The notes under the pieces: generated by a model
The model's input: the letters and a program-made list of their open reading frames with translations, nothing else
Told to the model about the DNA's origin: nothing
The model's database searches: none
Position numbers and translations under genes: made by a program
Shown: positions 18,483 to 24,335 of the stretch, piece after piece
Position numbering within the stretch: position 1 is the first letter of the stretch
Layout of the letters: the number at the start of each line of letters is the position of its first letter
Assembly (NCBI GenBank): GCA_030694975.1
Contig: JAUYTU010000038.1
Coordinates: 1-49,672, forward strand
DNA from: Erysipelotrichaceae bacterium
GTDB lineage: Bacteria > Bacillota_I > Bacilli_A > Erysipelotrichales > Erysipelotrichaceae
DNA: 49,672 bases
Direction of reading: 5' to 3'

Positions 18483-19004
18483 ATGACCTTTACTAAAGAA
18501 GATCGTTTCGAGGATTTGTTCCGTAGAACCTATGATGAATTAAGCCGATTTGTATTGTTTAAAGTTCGAACCGTCAGTGATGCTGAGGATATAGTGTCCA
18601 ATGTATTTATGAACTTTTATAAGCACATCGTCAAAAATAATCATCAGGTAGATTCTGTGGAAGCTTATCTGTTTGAAATGGCGAAAAATGAGATTAAGCG
18701 ATATTATCGCAAGAAGCATCTGGCACCGATTTCGTTAAGTGAAGGTGACCTGGATGGAATTGAGAACATTGCGGATGAACGTGATGAAATTGCGTCGATG
18801 TTCGATCAGATGATGATTGACACGATCTGGCAAGCGGTTTTGAAATTGGATGAAACAGCTAAGATGATCTTAACGGCGAAATTCAGATTGGATATGACGT
18901 TCAGGGATATCGCAGTTTCGTTGAATAGCAATGAGAATTCTGTAAAGACGAAGTACTATCGAAGCATCGAGACTTTAAGGGTCTTGTTAAAGGAGGATTT
19001 ATGA
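18483..19004 (+). CDS. Sigma-70 family (ECF/SigI-like) RNA polymerase sigma factor
   Basis: This 173-residue alternative sigma factor has region 2 at about 8-75 (LSRFVLFKVRTVSDAEDIVSNVF and NEIKRYYRKKH) and region 4 at about 110-170. The region 4 helix-turn-helix reads MTFRDIAVSLNSNENSVKTKYYRSIETLR. There is no region 1 or long region 3, so it is of the extracytoplasmic-function type. It overlaps by four bases an RsgI-like membrane anti-sigma, which should hold it inactive. GAGG lies 11 bases before the ATG. Upstream, TGAAAC at 18432-18437 resembles the -35 of ECF promoters. A small palindrome, AGTCC/GGACT, lies at 18444-18457. Autoregulation is possible, but I could not fit a -10 at normal spacing. 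Confidence 0.88.
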   Translation: MTFTKEDRFEDLFRRTYDELSRFVLFKVRTVSDAEDIVSNVFMNFYKHIVKNNHQVDSVEAYLFEMAKNEIKRYYRKKHLAPISLSEGDLDGIENIADERDEIASMFDQMMIDTIWQAVLKLDETAKMILTAKFRLDMTFRDIAVSLNSNENSVKTKYYRSIETLRVLLKEDL

Positions 19005-19867
19005 GTAATTTGAAACGCACGTTTGAAAGAAAGACATTTGTTAAGGCAGATGTTCTGGCGGAAATCACCGAAAAAAATCGCAGTCGCAATTTTAATTTCG
19101 GTTGGTTGGTCGCTTTGGGTTTGACGTTGGTCTTGTTAGTCGCTGGTTTACAGTGGGTTAACACCTCTGCGTCCTATGTATCGGTGGATATCAATCCGAG
19201 CATCATGTTGACGACCAATCCGTGGGAAAAGGTAGTTGAAGTGGAAGCTCTGAATGAAGATGCCGAGACTTTGCTTGTAAATTTAAAACAGATTGGTTTG
19301 CAAGTGGATGAAGCTGTCGAGTTGATTATTGCGGAAGCCACAGAGATGGGTTACATCGATCTGCTAGCTGAAGGTGAAATCGCCATGGTTACGGCGTATG
19401 ATGACGATGAAGTTGATGAAGAGCGAAGCGAGAAGATTCGTGAACGCATTCAAGACCGACTTGAAAAACGCGAAATGGCCGTCAATGTTGTCGGACATGA
19501 AGCTGTAGCCGAACAGAAAGAATTGGCCAATAAATTGGGTGTTACTTTGGGTAAAGTGTTGTTTGTTCAACGCCTTCAAGAACGATATCCGACGTTGGGC
19601 GGCGATGAACTTTACGAAATGTCTATCAAGGACATTATGATTAAAGTCAAAGAAATTCGTGGCAATGGTCCGGATAAAGAAGCATTGGCAGATAAGAAAG
19701 CTCTGTTAAAACTTAAAGCAGTGAACAAGGTTCAAGAACGTACTCAAGAATTTGTTCAGGAGTTCCGTGAGGAAAATCCGGGTACGGAGTTGACAGATGC
19801 GGAAATCATTCGTCAAGAAGTAAAAAAACGTATCGACCAAATCAGACAAAACCGTAAAGGTAAATAG
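19001..19867 (+). CDS. RsgI-like membrane anti-sigma factor
   Basis: This 288-residue single-pass protein has a short cytosolic N-terminus (1-33) likely to bind the sigma factor encoded just upstream. One membrane helix spans about 34-53. An RsgI-type outside domain follows, starting with YVSVDINPSIMLTTNP (59-74) and the VVEVEALNED continuation. The rest (about 110-288) is highly charged and probably helical, rich in K, E, R and Q (for example KIRERIQDRLEKRE), unlike the carbohydrate-binding tails of clostridial RsgI proteins. It is coupled to the sigma gene by ATGA, and a terminator closes the two-gene operon. The signal sensed is unknown. Confidence 0.85.
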   Translation: MSNLKRTFERKTFVKADVLAEITEKNRSRNFNFGWLVALGLTLVLLVAGLQWVNTSASYVSVDINPSIMLTTNPWEKVVEVEALNEDAETLLVNLKQIGLQVDEAVELIIAEATEMGYIDLLAEGEIAMVTAYDDDEVDEERSEKIRERIQDRLEKREMAVNVVGHEAVAEQKELANKLGVTLGKVLFVQRLQERYPTLGGDELYEMSIKDIMIKVKEIRGNGPDKEALADKKALLKLKAVNKVQERTQEFVQEFREENPGTELTDAEIIRQEVKKRIDQIRQNRKGK

Positions 19868-19873
19868 ATAACG

Positions 19874-19898
19874 ACCTGTGAGAAATCACAGGTTTTAT
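19874..19898 (+). terminator. Terminator after the sigma/anti-sigma operon
   Basis: ACCTGTGA (19874-19881) pairs perfectly with TCACAGGT (19886-19893) around a GAAA tetraloop, then TTTATT. Confidence 0.88.
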
Positions 19899-19959
19899 TA
19901 TGATATTTATAATGATCTGTTGAATTTACTGAAGGTTCACACTTGTCTGGAAATTAAAC

Positions 19960-19988
19960 TTGACAACAATCTAGTTGGATGTTACTTT
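19960..19988 (+). promoter_or_regulatory. Sigma-A-type promoter
   Basis: TTGACA (19960-19965) is a perfect -35. After exactly 17 bases it is followed by TACTTT (19983-19988). It would drive the micro-ORFs and probably the four genes up to the ABC ATPase. Confidence 0.65.
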
Positions 19989-20014
19989 TTAGACAAATCA
20001 TAGGGGGATAACGT

Positions 20015-20074
20015 ATGAATCATCCATCCGCACATGGATCACGAAATATATTCGAACCATGTTTTTTTACGTAG
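20015..20074 (+). CDS. 19-residue micro-ORF with strong ribosome site
   Basis: GGGGGATAACGT precedes an ATG. Nineteen codons follow, starting MNHPSAHG and ending NIFEPCFFT, with stop TAG at 20072-20074. The placement, 27 bases behind a good promoter and upstream of a bacteriocin-type exporter, makes a small exported or signalling peptide conceivable. The single cysteine followed by aromatic residues near the C-terminus recalls thiolactone peptides only superficially. No leader or processing enzyme is visible. Confidence 0.3.
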   Translation: MNHPSAHGSRNIFEPCFFT

Positions 20075-20111
20075 AATTACAGCGGTAGAATAAAGAAGAA
20101 GGGTCGTCGAC

Positions 20112-20198
20112 ATGGATTACCGGCATTCTATCCTACCAAAAGTCGTGAGTGAAGAAATCATAAAAATAATTCTAGCAAGGTTTGCAGTGAAATGTTAA
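20112..20198 (+). CDS. 28-residue micro-ORF
   Basis: An ATG-started ORF of 28 codons (begins MDYRHSILPK, ends ARFAVKC) lies 38 bases after the first micro-ORF. AAGAAGAAGGG lies about 11 bases upstream. The middle (VVSEEIIKIILARFAV) could form an amphipathic helix. It may be a peptide or chance; no homology is recognised. Confidence 0.25.
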   Translation: MDYRHSILPKVVSEEIIKIILARFAVKC

Positions 20199-20228
20199 TA
20201 ACTGTGTGTTAACGGAGGGAAAGATAAA

Positions 20229-20816
20229 ATGAAAGAGGAATCTCAAACCCAATTAAGAGATGAACAAGACGAAGGTTTGTTTAGTAAGCTAACTGAATTT
20301 TTAAATACAGATGAAATATTGGAAATCTATACCAATGTGTCCGACCCCGAGAAATTCAGTTCAGGTTTTGTATGTGCAGTTTCTGATATGGAATTATTGC
20401 TTTGCCATATACATCCATCGGGATTATATGATGGATATATGGTAAAAGAGATTAGCTCTATATATCGTTTAAACTACAAAACGAAATATTGCGATAAATT
20501 AAGAAAATTATGGAAGATAAATGGTCGGAAACACCTGGAAGTAGCTCAAGGCTCAAGTAATCAATATCTCAATCTCTTGAATCATGCACTAAATAATCGT
20601 TTAGTTGTATCTGTGGAATTACTTGACAGCAGTTTTAACAACATCGATGGTCTTGTTAAGAGTATTGAAGGTGAGTCTATCACTTTTGAAGAATATGATC
20701 AATATGGAGGATTTGATGGTGTAAGCATTATTTGTTTAAACGACATAACGCATTTGGTATGCGATTCTGAAGATGAGTCATGTTTAAAACTGCTGATTGA
20801 TCCGCCGATACTATAA
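20229..20816 (+). CDS. Protein of unknown function with two related halves
   Basis: I do not recognise this 195-residue protein. It has no signal peptide or membrane helix, so it should be cytosolic. Two segments look like repeats of one small beta-rich unit. Residues about 45-80 run FSSGFVCAVSDMELLL...GLYDGYMVKEISSIYRL, and residues about 125-175 run LVKSIEGESITFEEYDQYGGFDGVSIICLNDITHL. Both share the order hydrophobic strand, acidic turn, DG, then an I-x-x-hydrophobic strand. An Sm-like or small barrel fold is one possibility. GGAGGGAAAG precedes the ATG perfectly. Its place at the head of the exporter locus suggests an immunity, regulatory or cargo-related role. The DNA looks more AT-rich than the purine operon. 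Confidence 0.6.
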   Translation: MKEESQTQLRDEQDEGLFSKLTEFLNTDEILEIYTNVSDPEKFSSGFVCAVSDMELLLCHIHPSGLYDGYMVKEISSIYRLNYKTKYCDKLRKLWKINGRKHLEVAQGSSNQYLNLLNHALNNRLVVSVELLDSSFNNIDGLVKSIEGESITFEEYDQYGGFDGVSIICLNDITHLVCDSEDESCLKLLIDPPIL

Positions 20817-20946
20817 GAAGATTTTCTGCACTAGGGCTTTCTATTTCCTTTGTTGTTTATTGTTGGGATGAAGCATCAGAGGAATAGTTTATATAAATTT
20901 ATTGTATTTGTTGTAACTTTAGAAATTAAATAGAAACGGGGAAACT

Positions 20947-21549
20947 ATGAGAAAAATTGTACTTTTATTGCTTATGTTTTTGTTTGTCAGTGGTTGTACG
21001 AAACAAGTAGACAACGCTTATGATGGGGATATTGCCAGTCTGAAACAGCAGTTATCGTTTGTAAGTCAGAAGTTAGAGACATTGAATTTGGAGATTGCGA
21101 CACTAAAGGAAAGCATTAATAAGCTACAAGAATCGCAAGGTACCATAAGTAATCAGATCAGCTGTCATTATGATCAAGGGGATAATCTGTCCCGTTGCTG
21201 GTTTCCGCTAAGTCAGGTGGGATTTGTTGTTAGTGGGCAGATACCCACACAATTTAAGTTTGTTGAGAACTCTTATAACATGGGTGGAATGCAATTACTG
21301 ATACGTTATGATGATGGGAAGGAAACGGATGAGATTGCTCAGTTTTTTGTTGGTAAGTTGAACACTGAAGAACAAGATGATATAGGAGCAAAATTAATCT
21401 CTGATTTGAGTCCGTTTCGCAGTGTCTATTCGGTTGTTATATTGGATACTAATTTGTCCAATGATGCCAAAGCTATTGTGGATCAGTGGTTACAGACAAA
21501 TTACTCAACCATCCAACGGAATCATACTAAGTATAAGTTTCTGCCTTAA
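20947..21549 (+). CDS. Lipoprotein with N-terminal coiled coil, unknown function
   Basis: This 200-residue exported lipoprotein has a signal peptide (1-16) and lipobox VSGC, with C17 as the lipidated residue. Residues about 28-66 form a heptad-like coiled coil (SLKQQLSFVSQKLETLNLEIATLKESINKL). The C-terminal 130 residues form a mixed globular part with two cysteines (near 73 and 83) that might pair. GAAACGGGGAAACT before the ATG gives only a moderate ribosome site. It lies 30 bases before the DUF1430-type membrane protein, so it is likely part of the same export/immunity system. It could bind the cargo or protect the cell surface. Confidence 0.72.
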   Translation: MRKIVLLLLMFLFVSGCTKQVDNAYDGDIASLKQQLSFVSQKLETLNLEIATLKESINKLQESQGTISNQISCHYDQGDNLSRCWFPLSQVGFVVSGQIPTQFKFVENSYNMGGMQLLIRYDDGKETDEIAQFFVGKLNTEEQDDIGAKLISDLSPFRSVYSVVILDTNLSNDAKAIVDQWLQTNYSTIQRNHTKYKFLP

Positions 21550-21578
21550 AGGGTGAAACTGAATCTCTGGGGGAAGAA

Positions 21579-23660
21579 ATGAAATCAAGACAACTAATAC
21601 TTGCACTTCTGTTTGGGCTGCTATTGACATTTTTAGTAACACCCGCAAAGCAAATGCTCTTACGGCAACAGGCCGCTTCATACCACAATGTCCTACGTTC
21701 GCAATCTGCGAGTGTCGGTGAGTTTTTGATTAATGGACTCAATGATACCAAACGCGGCATCGAGTTATTGAAACAATTGGCAGAACAGTATGACGTCAAT
21801 GTTTTTTACAGTTCCACGGATTCGATAATTGCGGGGGAAGATGCTTCCGATTCGTCGGTCGTTTTTCTGATTTTAAGTGATCCCAAGTATCTGGACATAC
21901 TTCCGCTTAGTCGCAAACTTAGTTTAAGTGAGTTCAATCAGATCCAACAACCCATCTCTAACAGTACCTCAAATCCGCTACATATTGAAATCATGGATAT
22001 CGGCTGGAAGTTCTATTTGGCGCCGATCGATTTGTATGACGGTGAGAGTTTTTCGGGGGTGGTTAGGGTCGGCGGTATTCCTCAGATGATTGAGAAGTTT
22101 CGCAATGACTTTCAGATGTTGACACAGGCTTACTTACTTCCCTATAATCAACCAGTTATTCCGGAAAATAATTCACAAATATCTTTTCAGATCATGGTAA
22201 ATACACTCTTACAAAACTGGATGATCGTCATCGTGTCCTTTTTGTTAATCATCATTACGGTGTATGTTTCCTATTCTAAGCGAAAGGATACCGTTGTTAA
22301 GCGACTTCATGGTTTTTCTTCTCTGAGCATTGCCTTTGAACAGACCAAAGATATGCTTACCATCGGACTGCTAATGTTTCTGCCGATTTACTTTATTGTA
22401 TTTACGATCACAAACAACCTTAGTTTAAACTTTGTACTTGATGTTCTGCCTCACTTCTTATCCTTATTCTTGATCGTGATCAGCTTCATATTCTTAATTG
22501 TGTCACTATCCGGAATTGTATTATCACTTATCCGACCTGCGGATGTACTAAAAAACTATGGGAGAAACGATGGTTTCATCTGGATTATGACGATGGTCAA
22601 AGTCTTGATTCTGCTATTGGTATTAAAACCCATCACCAACACAATTTTCTTCGTTGATTATCTTGGCTCAATGATCCAGACAAACCGAACCTACAGTCAA
22701 ATGTTCAGTGATTCTTATACATTGACTGCCCAAGGTGATTCATTTGATCAGCTGTTACGCGTCAGTGAGCAGATCTATCCGATATTGAATGAATCATCCC
22801 ATGCGTTGGCAATGACTTATTCATGGGTGGAAGGGTCGGAAGAACTGGGATCTTATCGGGCATACGTCAATCGAAACTATATCCAAAGTCAAAAACTCAT
22901 GGATGAACAAGGGAATTTGATCGATTCCTCAACCGTGAATGAATCAACGATCATTGTCAGTCAATCCTTAAAAGAAACGATCGTTGATTATCTCAGTCAG
23001 TCACCCGATAACTGTCGAAATCTGATCGCTACATTAAATGACTGTAAAGATTTGACGGTCATCTATACGGACACTAACGTTACCATAACTCCTTATTTCT
23101 ACACCTACGATCCACCGGAGGTGAATGACTTAGATAAGAATTTCATTCTAATACCCTACGACGCAACTTTTCCTATATTCAATGTATTCTTTGAATTAGA
23201 GGATGCAAATCTTGCCTCGGCTATCATCGAGAAGGTCGATCCCTTTGTTTCAAAGAACCGAGTGATGATGGTGAACTTAGCGGCGGAAATGGATCAACAG
23301 ATTGAAAGTATGATTGGACAGCTTGCACAGTCAATTCTGCTTATCATCATCTACTGTTTAATGATTCTGAGTGTACTTGCGGGAATCTATTTGATGTTGT
23401 TTGACTCAAAAAAGCGAATTTGTGCGATCAAGTATACCTTTGGTATCCGATCTTGGCAAACACTGTTAGAACCATTATTAGTTCAGATGTTCATTACTCA
23501 AGTCATTATATTTGTGGCACATCGTTTCTTTATAAATCAGGACTGGACCATCACCCTGTTGGCCTCTGCCTTAATTGCCCTGTTGGAAATATCATTGTTT
23601 CTGTTAATGTCAAGGTTCATTGAAAGCCGCTTAAGCGGTATTGTAAAGAGGGGGATATAG
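21579..23660 (+). CDS. Bacteriocin-associated integral membrane protein (DUF1430 / lactococcin 972 type)
   Basis: This 693-residue membrane protein looks like the permease of the lactococcin-972-type transporter group. Membrane helices are predicted by eye at about 4-20, 214-231, 260-278, 290-316, 336-352, 585-607, 630-647 and 657-677. Two large outside domains lie at 25-210 and 355-580. The C-terminal helices have a FtsX/MacB-like arrangement. The lone N-terminal helix followed by an outside domain is typical of the bacteriocin-associated seven/eight-helix family. GGGGGAAG precedes the ATG. The ABC ATPase starts one base after its stop codon, so the two form one transporter. Specific substrate unknown. 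Confidence 0.8.
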   Translation: MKSRQLILALLFGLLLTFLVTPAKQMLLRQQAASYHNVLRSQSASVGEFLINGLNDTKRGIELLKQLAEQYDVNVFYSSTDSIIAGEDASDSSVVFLILSDPKYLDILPLSRKLSLSEFNQIQQPISNSTSNPLHIEIMDIGWKFYLAPIDLYDGESFSGVVRVGGIPQMIEKFRNDFQMLTQAYLLPYNQPVIPENNSQISFQIMVNTLLQNWMIVIVSFLLIIITVYVSYSKRKDTVVKRLHGFSSLSIAFEQTKDMLTIGLLMFLPIYFIVFTITNNLSLNFVLDVLPHFLSLFLIVISFIFLIVSLSGIVLSLIRPADVLKNYGRNDGFIWIMTMVKVLILLLVLKPITNTIFFVDYLGSMIQTNRTYSQMFSDSYTLTAQGDSFDQLLRVSEQIYPILNESSHALAMTYSWVEGSEELGSYRAYVNRNYIQSQKLMDEQGNLIDSSTVNESTIIVSQSLKETIVDYLSQSPDNCRNLIATLNDCKDLTVIYTDTNVTITPYFYTYDPPEVNDLDKNFILIPYDATFPIFNVFFELEDANLASAIIEKVDPFVSKNRVMMVNLAAEMDQQIESMIGQLAQSILLIIIYCLMILSVLAGIYLMLFDSKKRICAIKYTFGIRSWQTLLEPLLVQMFITQVIIFVAHRFFINQDWTITLLASALIALLEISLFLLMSRFIESRLSGIVKRGI

Positions 23661-23661
23661 T

Positions 23662-24309
23662 ATGATAACGTTTCATCAGGTATCGAAGAGTTTCGGCACA
23701 AAGAAAGTACTAGATCAACTCAGTTTTGAAATAAAACAAGGTACATTAACCGCGATTACCGGACCTTCCGGGTGTGGCAAATCCACATTGTTAAACATTA
23801 TTGGCGGATTGGAAAAACCAGATTCTGGCGAAGTGAAAATAGAGGCTGTCGAACAGCCGTTTAAGAACTCAACAACACGCTTGCTTCTTTATCGAAATCA
23901 ACTGTCCTACCTGTTTCAAAACTATGCTCTGATCGATCATGAGTCCGTTGAGTACAACCTTGCGATTGCCTTACGCTTTGTTAAGCATCCCAATAAAAAA
24001 GCATTAATGAAAGAAGCGTTGACGAAAGTACATCTTGACGTAGATTTAAAGACACCTATTTACACACTTTCGGGTGGAGAGCAACAACGGGTCGCCATTG
24101 CCCGATTATTCCTAAAACCCAGTTCAATTATTCTGGCGGATGAACCAACCGGAAATTTGGATCATGACAATGGGTTGGAAGTTATGAACATGCTCAAATC
24201 CTTAGCGCACCAAGGCAAAACGGTGGTCGTTGTAACGCATGATCCCAGTTACTTGGAATGCTTTGATGATGTGATTGCGTTGGAAGATATCAGGAAACAA
24301 ATCACTTAA
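23662..24309 (+). CDS. ABC transporter ATP-binding protein (lactococcin 972 export group)
   Basis: This 215-residue ATPase energises the membrane protein upstream. Walker A is GPSGCGKST (34-42), the Q-loop is YLFQNYAL, and the signature LSGGEQQ lies near 133-139. Walker B is [10 protein letters not shown] and the H-loop is VVVVTHD. Length and family resemble the MacB/LolD-like exporters linked to DUF1430 proteins. AGAGGGGGATATAGT ends the permease gene and supplies the ribosome site. A strong terminator follows, so the locus ends here. Confidence 0.9.
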
Positions 24310-24313
24310 ATTC

Positions 24314-24335
24314 AGGAGGTTTCGACCTCCTTTTT
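24314..24335 (+). terminator. Terminator after the ABC exporter locus
   Basis: AGGAGGT (24314-24320) pairs with ACCTCCT (24325-24331) around a TTCG tetraloop, with five T residues. Flanking ATTCA/TGAAT can extend the stem. Confidence 0.92.

Follow-up and report, generated by a model that had tools for sequence, protein, structure and literature searches.

A repeated leader and a mobile ABC pair in an accessory island of an Erysipelotrichaceae genome

Does a lactococcin-972-type transporter without a recognizable bacteriocin gene at its side handle a new peptide, or does it belong to something else? The question is raised by a 4.4-kb island in the 49,672-nucleotide window analyzed here, which is contig 8 of the source genome G000 (2.19 Mb, 42 contigs) of an Erysipelotrichaceae bacterium. 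Behind a promoter and a short leader, the island encodes a 195-aa protein (p195), a 200-aa lipoprotein, a 693-aa membrane protein, and a 215-aa ATP-binding cassette (ABC) ATPase. The list of open reading frames (ORFs) of the window verified that these four exist where an earlier note, made from the sequence, had placed them (Table 1). That note had read them as a single export or immunity locus with a hidden new peptide. The distant lactococcin-972 affinity of the ABC pair survives from this claim; the hidden peptide in a shared locus does not, and the neighbors are not conserved with the pair. With a probability of roughly 0.55, we read the stretch as an accessory island of composite make-up that occupies a chromosomal hot spot and carries envelope and immunity-type genes for competition between bacteria. 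The closest named relatives of G000 are uncultured Erysipelotrichaceae and HGW-Firmicutes-10 metagenome-assembled genomes. The genus comparison set consisted of 7 congeneric genomes and the whole family set of 266 genomes.

An accessory site flanked by rsgI and a GNAT gene

In the relatives G003, G001, and G005, the terminator AGGAGGTTTCGACCTCCT, in this or a closely similar form, comes directly after the rsgI stop codon, and the GNAT acetyltransferase gene comes next. As these three elements are contiguous there, the island is extra DNA in G000. At the same site, G002 carries the left terminator as in G000 and then a gene for a 167-aa membrane protein (G002:C45:24900-25960). Ahead of this gene stands ATGAACCAT..CCATGTTTT, which may be a diverged copy of the leader. 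Both signs of an accessory island were found at this site: three relatives have nothing there, and a fourth carries alternative cargo. The GC content of the island is 38.3%, compared with 42-44% in the flanks.

The locus had been thought to end with one terminator. The hairpin is present at the right edge; it belongs to the resident chromosome, being the one behind rsgI in the empty-site relatives. A second terminator separates rsgI from the leader. No integrase or transposase gene was found among the ORFs read in the island, and no direct repeats were seen at its junctions on inspection by eye. Homologous recombination is a possible route of island exchange. Directly upstream of the site, window positions 18483-19867 encode a sigma factor of the extracytoplasmic function (ECF) type together with an RsgI-like anti-sigma factor; on the downstream side, the neighbor is the GNAT gene.

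A leader repeated ahead of unrelated genes

The island begins with a promoter-leader element that also precedes RHS/WapA-like toxins and other accessory genes across the genus. The repeat (19959-20082) was found by a DNA search of the genus, and the element is about 115 bp long. Eight copies lie in four of the seven genomes: two in G000, three in G002, two in G005, and one in G006. The leader is followed by p195 in the window and by a 2148-aa RHS protein (PF05593, DUF6531) at the other G000 copy. The genes behind it in G002 encode N-terminal homologues of this RHS protein and a lipoprotein. A leucine-rich repeat (LRR) protein follows in G006 and a DUF6560-like protein in G005, where another copy, on contig 50, lies at the contig end with RHS-type sequence downstream.

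All copies keep TTGAC, the TG-N-TANTTT region, GGGGGA, and ATGAAYCA. The six-pair stem ACATGG/CCATGT is present in 8/8 copies (GCATGG in two) and is followed by five to seven T residues, with energies of -8 to -11 kcal/mol. The promoter, earlier called a good one, is likewise conserved in all eight; its consensus score is poor, and it was not picked up by the promoter scan. The pattern ATGAAYCAT-N8..38-CCATGTTTT occurred 9 times in the 7 genus genomes versus 4 times in the other 259 family genomes, and its reversed control gave none in the genomes listed. Above background, the pattern is restricted to the genus. A sequence model of the leader gave background-level matches alone outside the genus; the best of these, in G016, was rejected as an unrelated coding region. 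Rfam returned for the leader region a single chance match, overlapping the left terminator, and the leader peptide had no match in plasmids.

The peptide itself is not kept. Among the five copies that are alike, 6 of the 8 variable codons alter the residue; the leader ORF ends after five codons in the G006 and G005 copies, and the window copy is one base out of register. The promoter, Shine-Dalgarno site, start codon, and hairpin are invariant while the peptide varies, so the apparent targets of selection are the nucleic acid and translation initiation there, not the product. As the leader stands upstream of unrelated genes, its micro-ORF is a poor cargo candidate. The element is probably a regulatory leader (attenuator) and not cargo. 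The earlier choice of this micro-ORF, ending in NIFEPCFFT, as cargo or immunity candidate is thus not supported, and a likely mis-annotation as a bacteriocin is corrected. It is also the one of two proposed micro-ORFs that stands, with its GGGGGA Shine-Dalgarno; the second (20112-20198) is unsupported, being one among dozens of ORFs of at least 20 aa in the stretch.

The layout of an attenuator, a promoter, a translatable short ORF, and an intrinsic terminator before the structural genes, was found here by sequence features alone. A precedent is toiL-topAI, in which an upstream ORF senses translation stress ahead of a toxin operon (PMC12121999). Like toiL-topAI and the macrolide-inducible msrD and vmlR leaders, the window leader combines a promoter, a short ORF with a strong Shine-Dalgarno site, and a terminator-like hairpin before the first real gene. 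Unlike them, it is reused before several unrelated accessory operons in one genus, and its peptide frame is not conserved; the likeness is one of sequence only. The element also recalls WapA/RHS polymorphic toxin loci, since the same leader lies ahead of the RHS proteins of G000 and G002; unlike those loci, the island has no RHS gene.

In the proposed mechanism, RNA polymerase would initiate at the TTGACA promoter and produce a leader of about 90 nt, and transcription would tend to stop at the ACATGG/CCATGT hairpin and its T-run. The leader ORF, translated from the strong GGGGGA site, would abut or enter the 5' arm of the hairpin, and the position of the ribosome on it would decide between stop and read-through. 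With read-through, the ABC pair, the lipoprotein, and p195, which may be an orphan immunity protein, would be made.

The best-surviving alternative is that the element is a mere duplicated strong promoter, a small RNA gene, or a repeat that resembles a miniature inverted-repeat transposable element (MITE) and brings its own terminator; in none of these cases would ribosomes control attenuation. This is a serious contender, although we would give it less than even odds. It would account for the conserved promoter and hairpin beside a non-conserved peptide, for copies at unrelated sites, and for the lack of a structural signal in RNA folding (z-scores 0.1 to -0.6 against shuffles). However, the conservation of GGGGGA, the start codon, and the codons after it (ATGAAYCAT) equals that of the promoter and would be unnecessary for a plain promoter or small RNA, and the copies are placed on the coding side of the accessory genes. 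We infer that the leader is a regulated promoter. A wider idea is speculative and, in our view, rather unlikely: a genus-specific ribosome-sensing attenuator may have been copied before unrelated competition genes (RHS toxins, lipoproteins, the LRR protein, mobile ABC immunity pairs) and form a dispersed translation-stress regulon, with targets swapped behind a constant leader. If the leader does sense translation stress, antibiotic or toxin attack would be linked to the expression of toxin and immunity genes in this uncultured Erysipelotrichaceae-related genus. A genus-wide leader ahead of exchangeable accessory and competition genes is the more interesting part of what remains of the locus.

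Two settings of the leader were also recorded. In G006:C208 and G005:C13, it occupies the same site behind a cation-ATPase-like gene, followed immediately by the DUF6560-like gene in G005 and by an inserted LRR-protein gene in G006. In G000:C38:105000-115700, displaced RHS C-terminal fragments, each paired with a small gene behind it, come after the leader and the 2148-aa RHS/DUF6531 gene and make up a toxin-tip/immunity cassette array beside phage-like genes.

The mobile ABC pair

The ABC pair forms a mobile block of its own. In G003 and G001, it is found at different sites with a DNA identity of 94-95%; the flanking core genes purB, rsgI, and GNAT are 75-89% identical. The left edge of homology is the ribosome-binding site (21568/21569). 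The right edge in G003, at 24294, lies shortly before the ATPase stop codon; the G001 contig stops within the ATPase gene. Homology breaks off abruptly at these edges. The G003 pair has a tRNA-Trp/Glu cluster on one side and the orthologue of the second G000 pair on the other, at a position where G000 is without this pair, and the G001 pair comes after a CorA-like gene. In both relatives, the pair was found without p195, the lipoprotein, and the micro-ORFs, and the conserved neighborhood on which the earlier idea depended is absent. That the stretch is one conserved bacteriocin system is not supported: a lactococcin-972-type ABC pair can travel alone, with no bacteriocin gene beside it. The membrane protein had no match in plasmids or viral contigs.

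The best NCBIfam match of the ATPase was TIGR03608, at 253.3 bits, 1.5 below the curated cut-off of 254.85; the FtsE (174 bits), LolD (146 bits), and MacB models scored 80-107 bits behind. The membrane protein reached 21.3 bits against TIGR01654, over its last ~120 residues alone and far under the curated cut-off of 189.35, which is reached by 0 of the 266 family genomes. A Pfam scan gave nothing relevant, and the label "DUF1430-like" has no Pfam match behind it. Aligned by hhalign with stronger TIGR01654-like family proteins, the protein gave E = 6e-5 over 118 columns, versus E = 0.07 for an unrelated ABC permease; on this profile comparison, it is a remote relative of TIGR01654 and not a curated member. 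By hydropathy, it is estimated to have about 8 transmembrane (TM) segments and two large extracellular regions. The lactococcin-972 affinity proposed for the pair is real, though distant.

As had been stated, no bacteriocin was recognizable: a PF09683 lactococcin-972 precursor was found neither in G000 nor in its genus in a search of G000 and 97 relatives. In the positive control, G287, such a precursor lies immediately upstream of a TIGR01654-like gene. Like the lactococcin-972 pair (TIGR03608 + TIGR01654; lcn972 orf2-orf3, scbBC), the window pair has the membrane gene before the ATPase gene, the same ATPase subfamily, and a membrane protein of about 690 aa with a core alignable by profile. 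Unlike it, the window pair has a membrane protein far under the family cut-off and a precursor neither adjacent nor in the genome, is preceded by p195 and the lipoprotein, and is mobile as an isolated block.

The lactococcal lcn972 orf2-orf3 pair is regarded as an immunity ABC transporter (PMC4055356). The pneumococcal equivalents are predicted, unverified immunity and transport proteins, and lactococcin-972-like peptides are thought to exit via Sec (PMC11796350). Given this exit and the immunity view of orf2-orf3, such ABC pairs require no dedicated cargo. By analogy, a free-standing mobile pair without a precursor would be consistent with an immunity or resistance role, and its isolation is as expected of a free-standing module of this kind. 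The pair would most likely remove or export an envelope-acting antimicrobial made elsewhere, for self-protection or immunity, and not the micro-ORF product.

Alternatively, the pair could be an envelope pump of the MacB/LolCDE/FtsEX type, unlinked to bacteriocins and perhaps working with the lipoprotein. The weak TIGR01654 match of the membrane protein speaks for this, and the nearest solved ATPase structures include MacB and LolD. We consider it unlikely, as the ATPase clearly prefers TIGR03608 over FtsE and LolD, profile comparison matches the membrane core to lactococcin-type partners, and conservation of the pair does not extend to the lipoprotein. A self-contained bacteriocin locus, in which the ABC pair exports, or gives protection from, a new peptide encoded by the micro-ORF or the lipoprotein gene, is highly improbable despite the near-TIGR03608 ATPase and a micro-ORF with a strong Shine-Dalgarno site in the same operon, as that micro-ORF is a copy of a genus-wide leader with no conserved frame, its peptide has no signal sequence, the pair occurs elsewhere without micro-ORF, p195, or lipoprotein, and the genome has no PF09683 precursor.

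Contig 38 of G000 carries two further pairs, with ATPases 44-47% identical to that of the window and membrane proteins barely alignable. Upstream of the third pair (G000:C38:137000-140800) are genes for a 201-aa lipoprotein and for an 88-aa protein whose start resembles a signal peptide. A 265-aa secreted-looking protein ending GGCAGCGFGGGGGGTWSVQPLYN (G000:C38:127544-128341) is encoded ~0.8 kb upstream of the second pair.

p195 and the lipoprotein

The earlier description of p195 as internally duplicated was verified: its halves match by profile (E = 1.3e-7), and nine sequences support a family with two matching halves. The gene has a GC content of 33.7%. No family match was found in Pfam, NCBIfam, or PADLOC, and no match in phages and viral contigs; PADLOC gave nothing beyond generic ATPase cross-hits. 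Single-sequence structure prediction reached a predicted local distance difference test (pLDDT) score of 42, too poor for a structure search. Within the bacterial family, the relatives of p195 stand alone, without ABC pairs. On Priestia megaterium plasmids, they lie in runs of small genes including DUF3885, YxiJ, UPF0715, and DUF5412. YxiJ is among the genes downstream of wapA in Bacillus subtilis. These immunity-like neighbors make an immunity-type role of p195 plausible by analogy. This resembles WapA/RHS loci with orphan immunity genes; unlike in those, p195 falls in no recognized immunity family and is a candidate immunity protein by its neighbors. The family is an unnamed duplicated-domain family that deserves a Pfam entry.

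Several points weigh against the composite island and its regulated leader. The p195 role is based on gene neighbors in another genus. The left terminator is also present in the distant G002, so that insertion and deletion at the site are indistinguishable. Every genome compared is a draft assembly, several being just 62-79% complete. The leader hairpin, which has an inner helix, is just 6 bp long. No antiterminator structure that could form in its place was found in the leader; a leader ORF that merely blocks the hairpin would require none. Since whole-leader folds are no better than shuffles, attenuation is a step that we infer.

Table 1 Positions of the island, its genes, and its signals in the window.
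Feature	Position	Strand	Basis or remark
Accessory island	19871..24313	+	Empty site in G003, G001, G005; other cargo in G002; GC; left terminator included
Left terminator	19873..19894	+	Between rsgI and leader; common to G002 at same site; absent in empty-site genomes
Promoter-leader element	19960..20082	+	Copies in genus
-35 TTGACA	19960-19965	+	Conserved among copies
Extended -10, TG-N-TACTTT (TACTTT from 19983)	19980-19988	+	Conserved among copies
Shine-Dalgarno GGGGGA	20003-20008	+	Conserved among copies
Leader micro-ORF MNHPSAHGSRNIFEPCFFT	20015..20074	+	Frame differs between copies
Terminator-like hairpin ACATGG..CCATGT then T7	20032..20068	+	Inside leader ORF; stem in all copies
p195, 195 aa	20229..20816	+	Duplicated small-domain cytosolic protein; candidate immunity-type
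Orphan coiled-coil lipoprotein, 200 aa	20947..21549	+	ORF list; Pfam/NCBIfam scans
Mobile block (ABC pair)	21568..24294	+	Copies elsewhere in G003, G001
Membrane subunit, 693 aa	21579..23660	+	TIGR01654; hhalign; TM estimate
ABC ATPase, 215 aa	23662..24309	+	TIGR03608
Right-edge resident terminator	24314..24331	+	Terminator-like hairpin; directly behind rsgI in empty-site genomes

For the lipoprotein, no relatives were found in 60 genomes, with a single chance-level match (E = 0.0085). Its naming as a coiled-coil lipoprotein holds: its N-terminus, MRKIVLLLLMFLFVSGC, resembles a lipobox, and a coiled-coil stretch is present.

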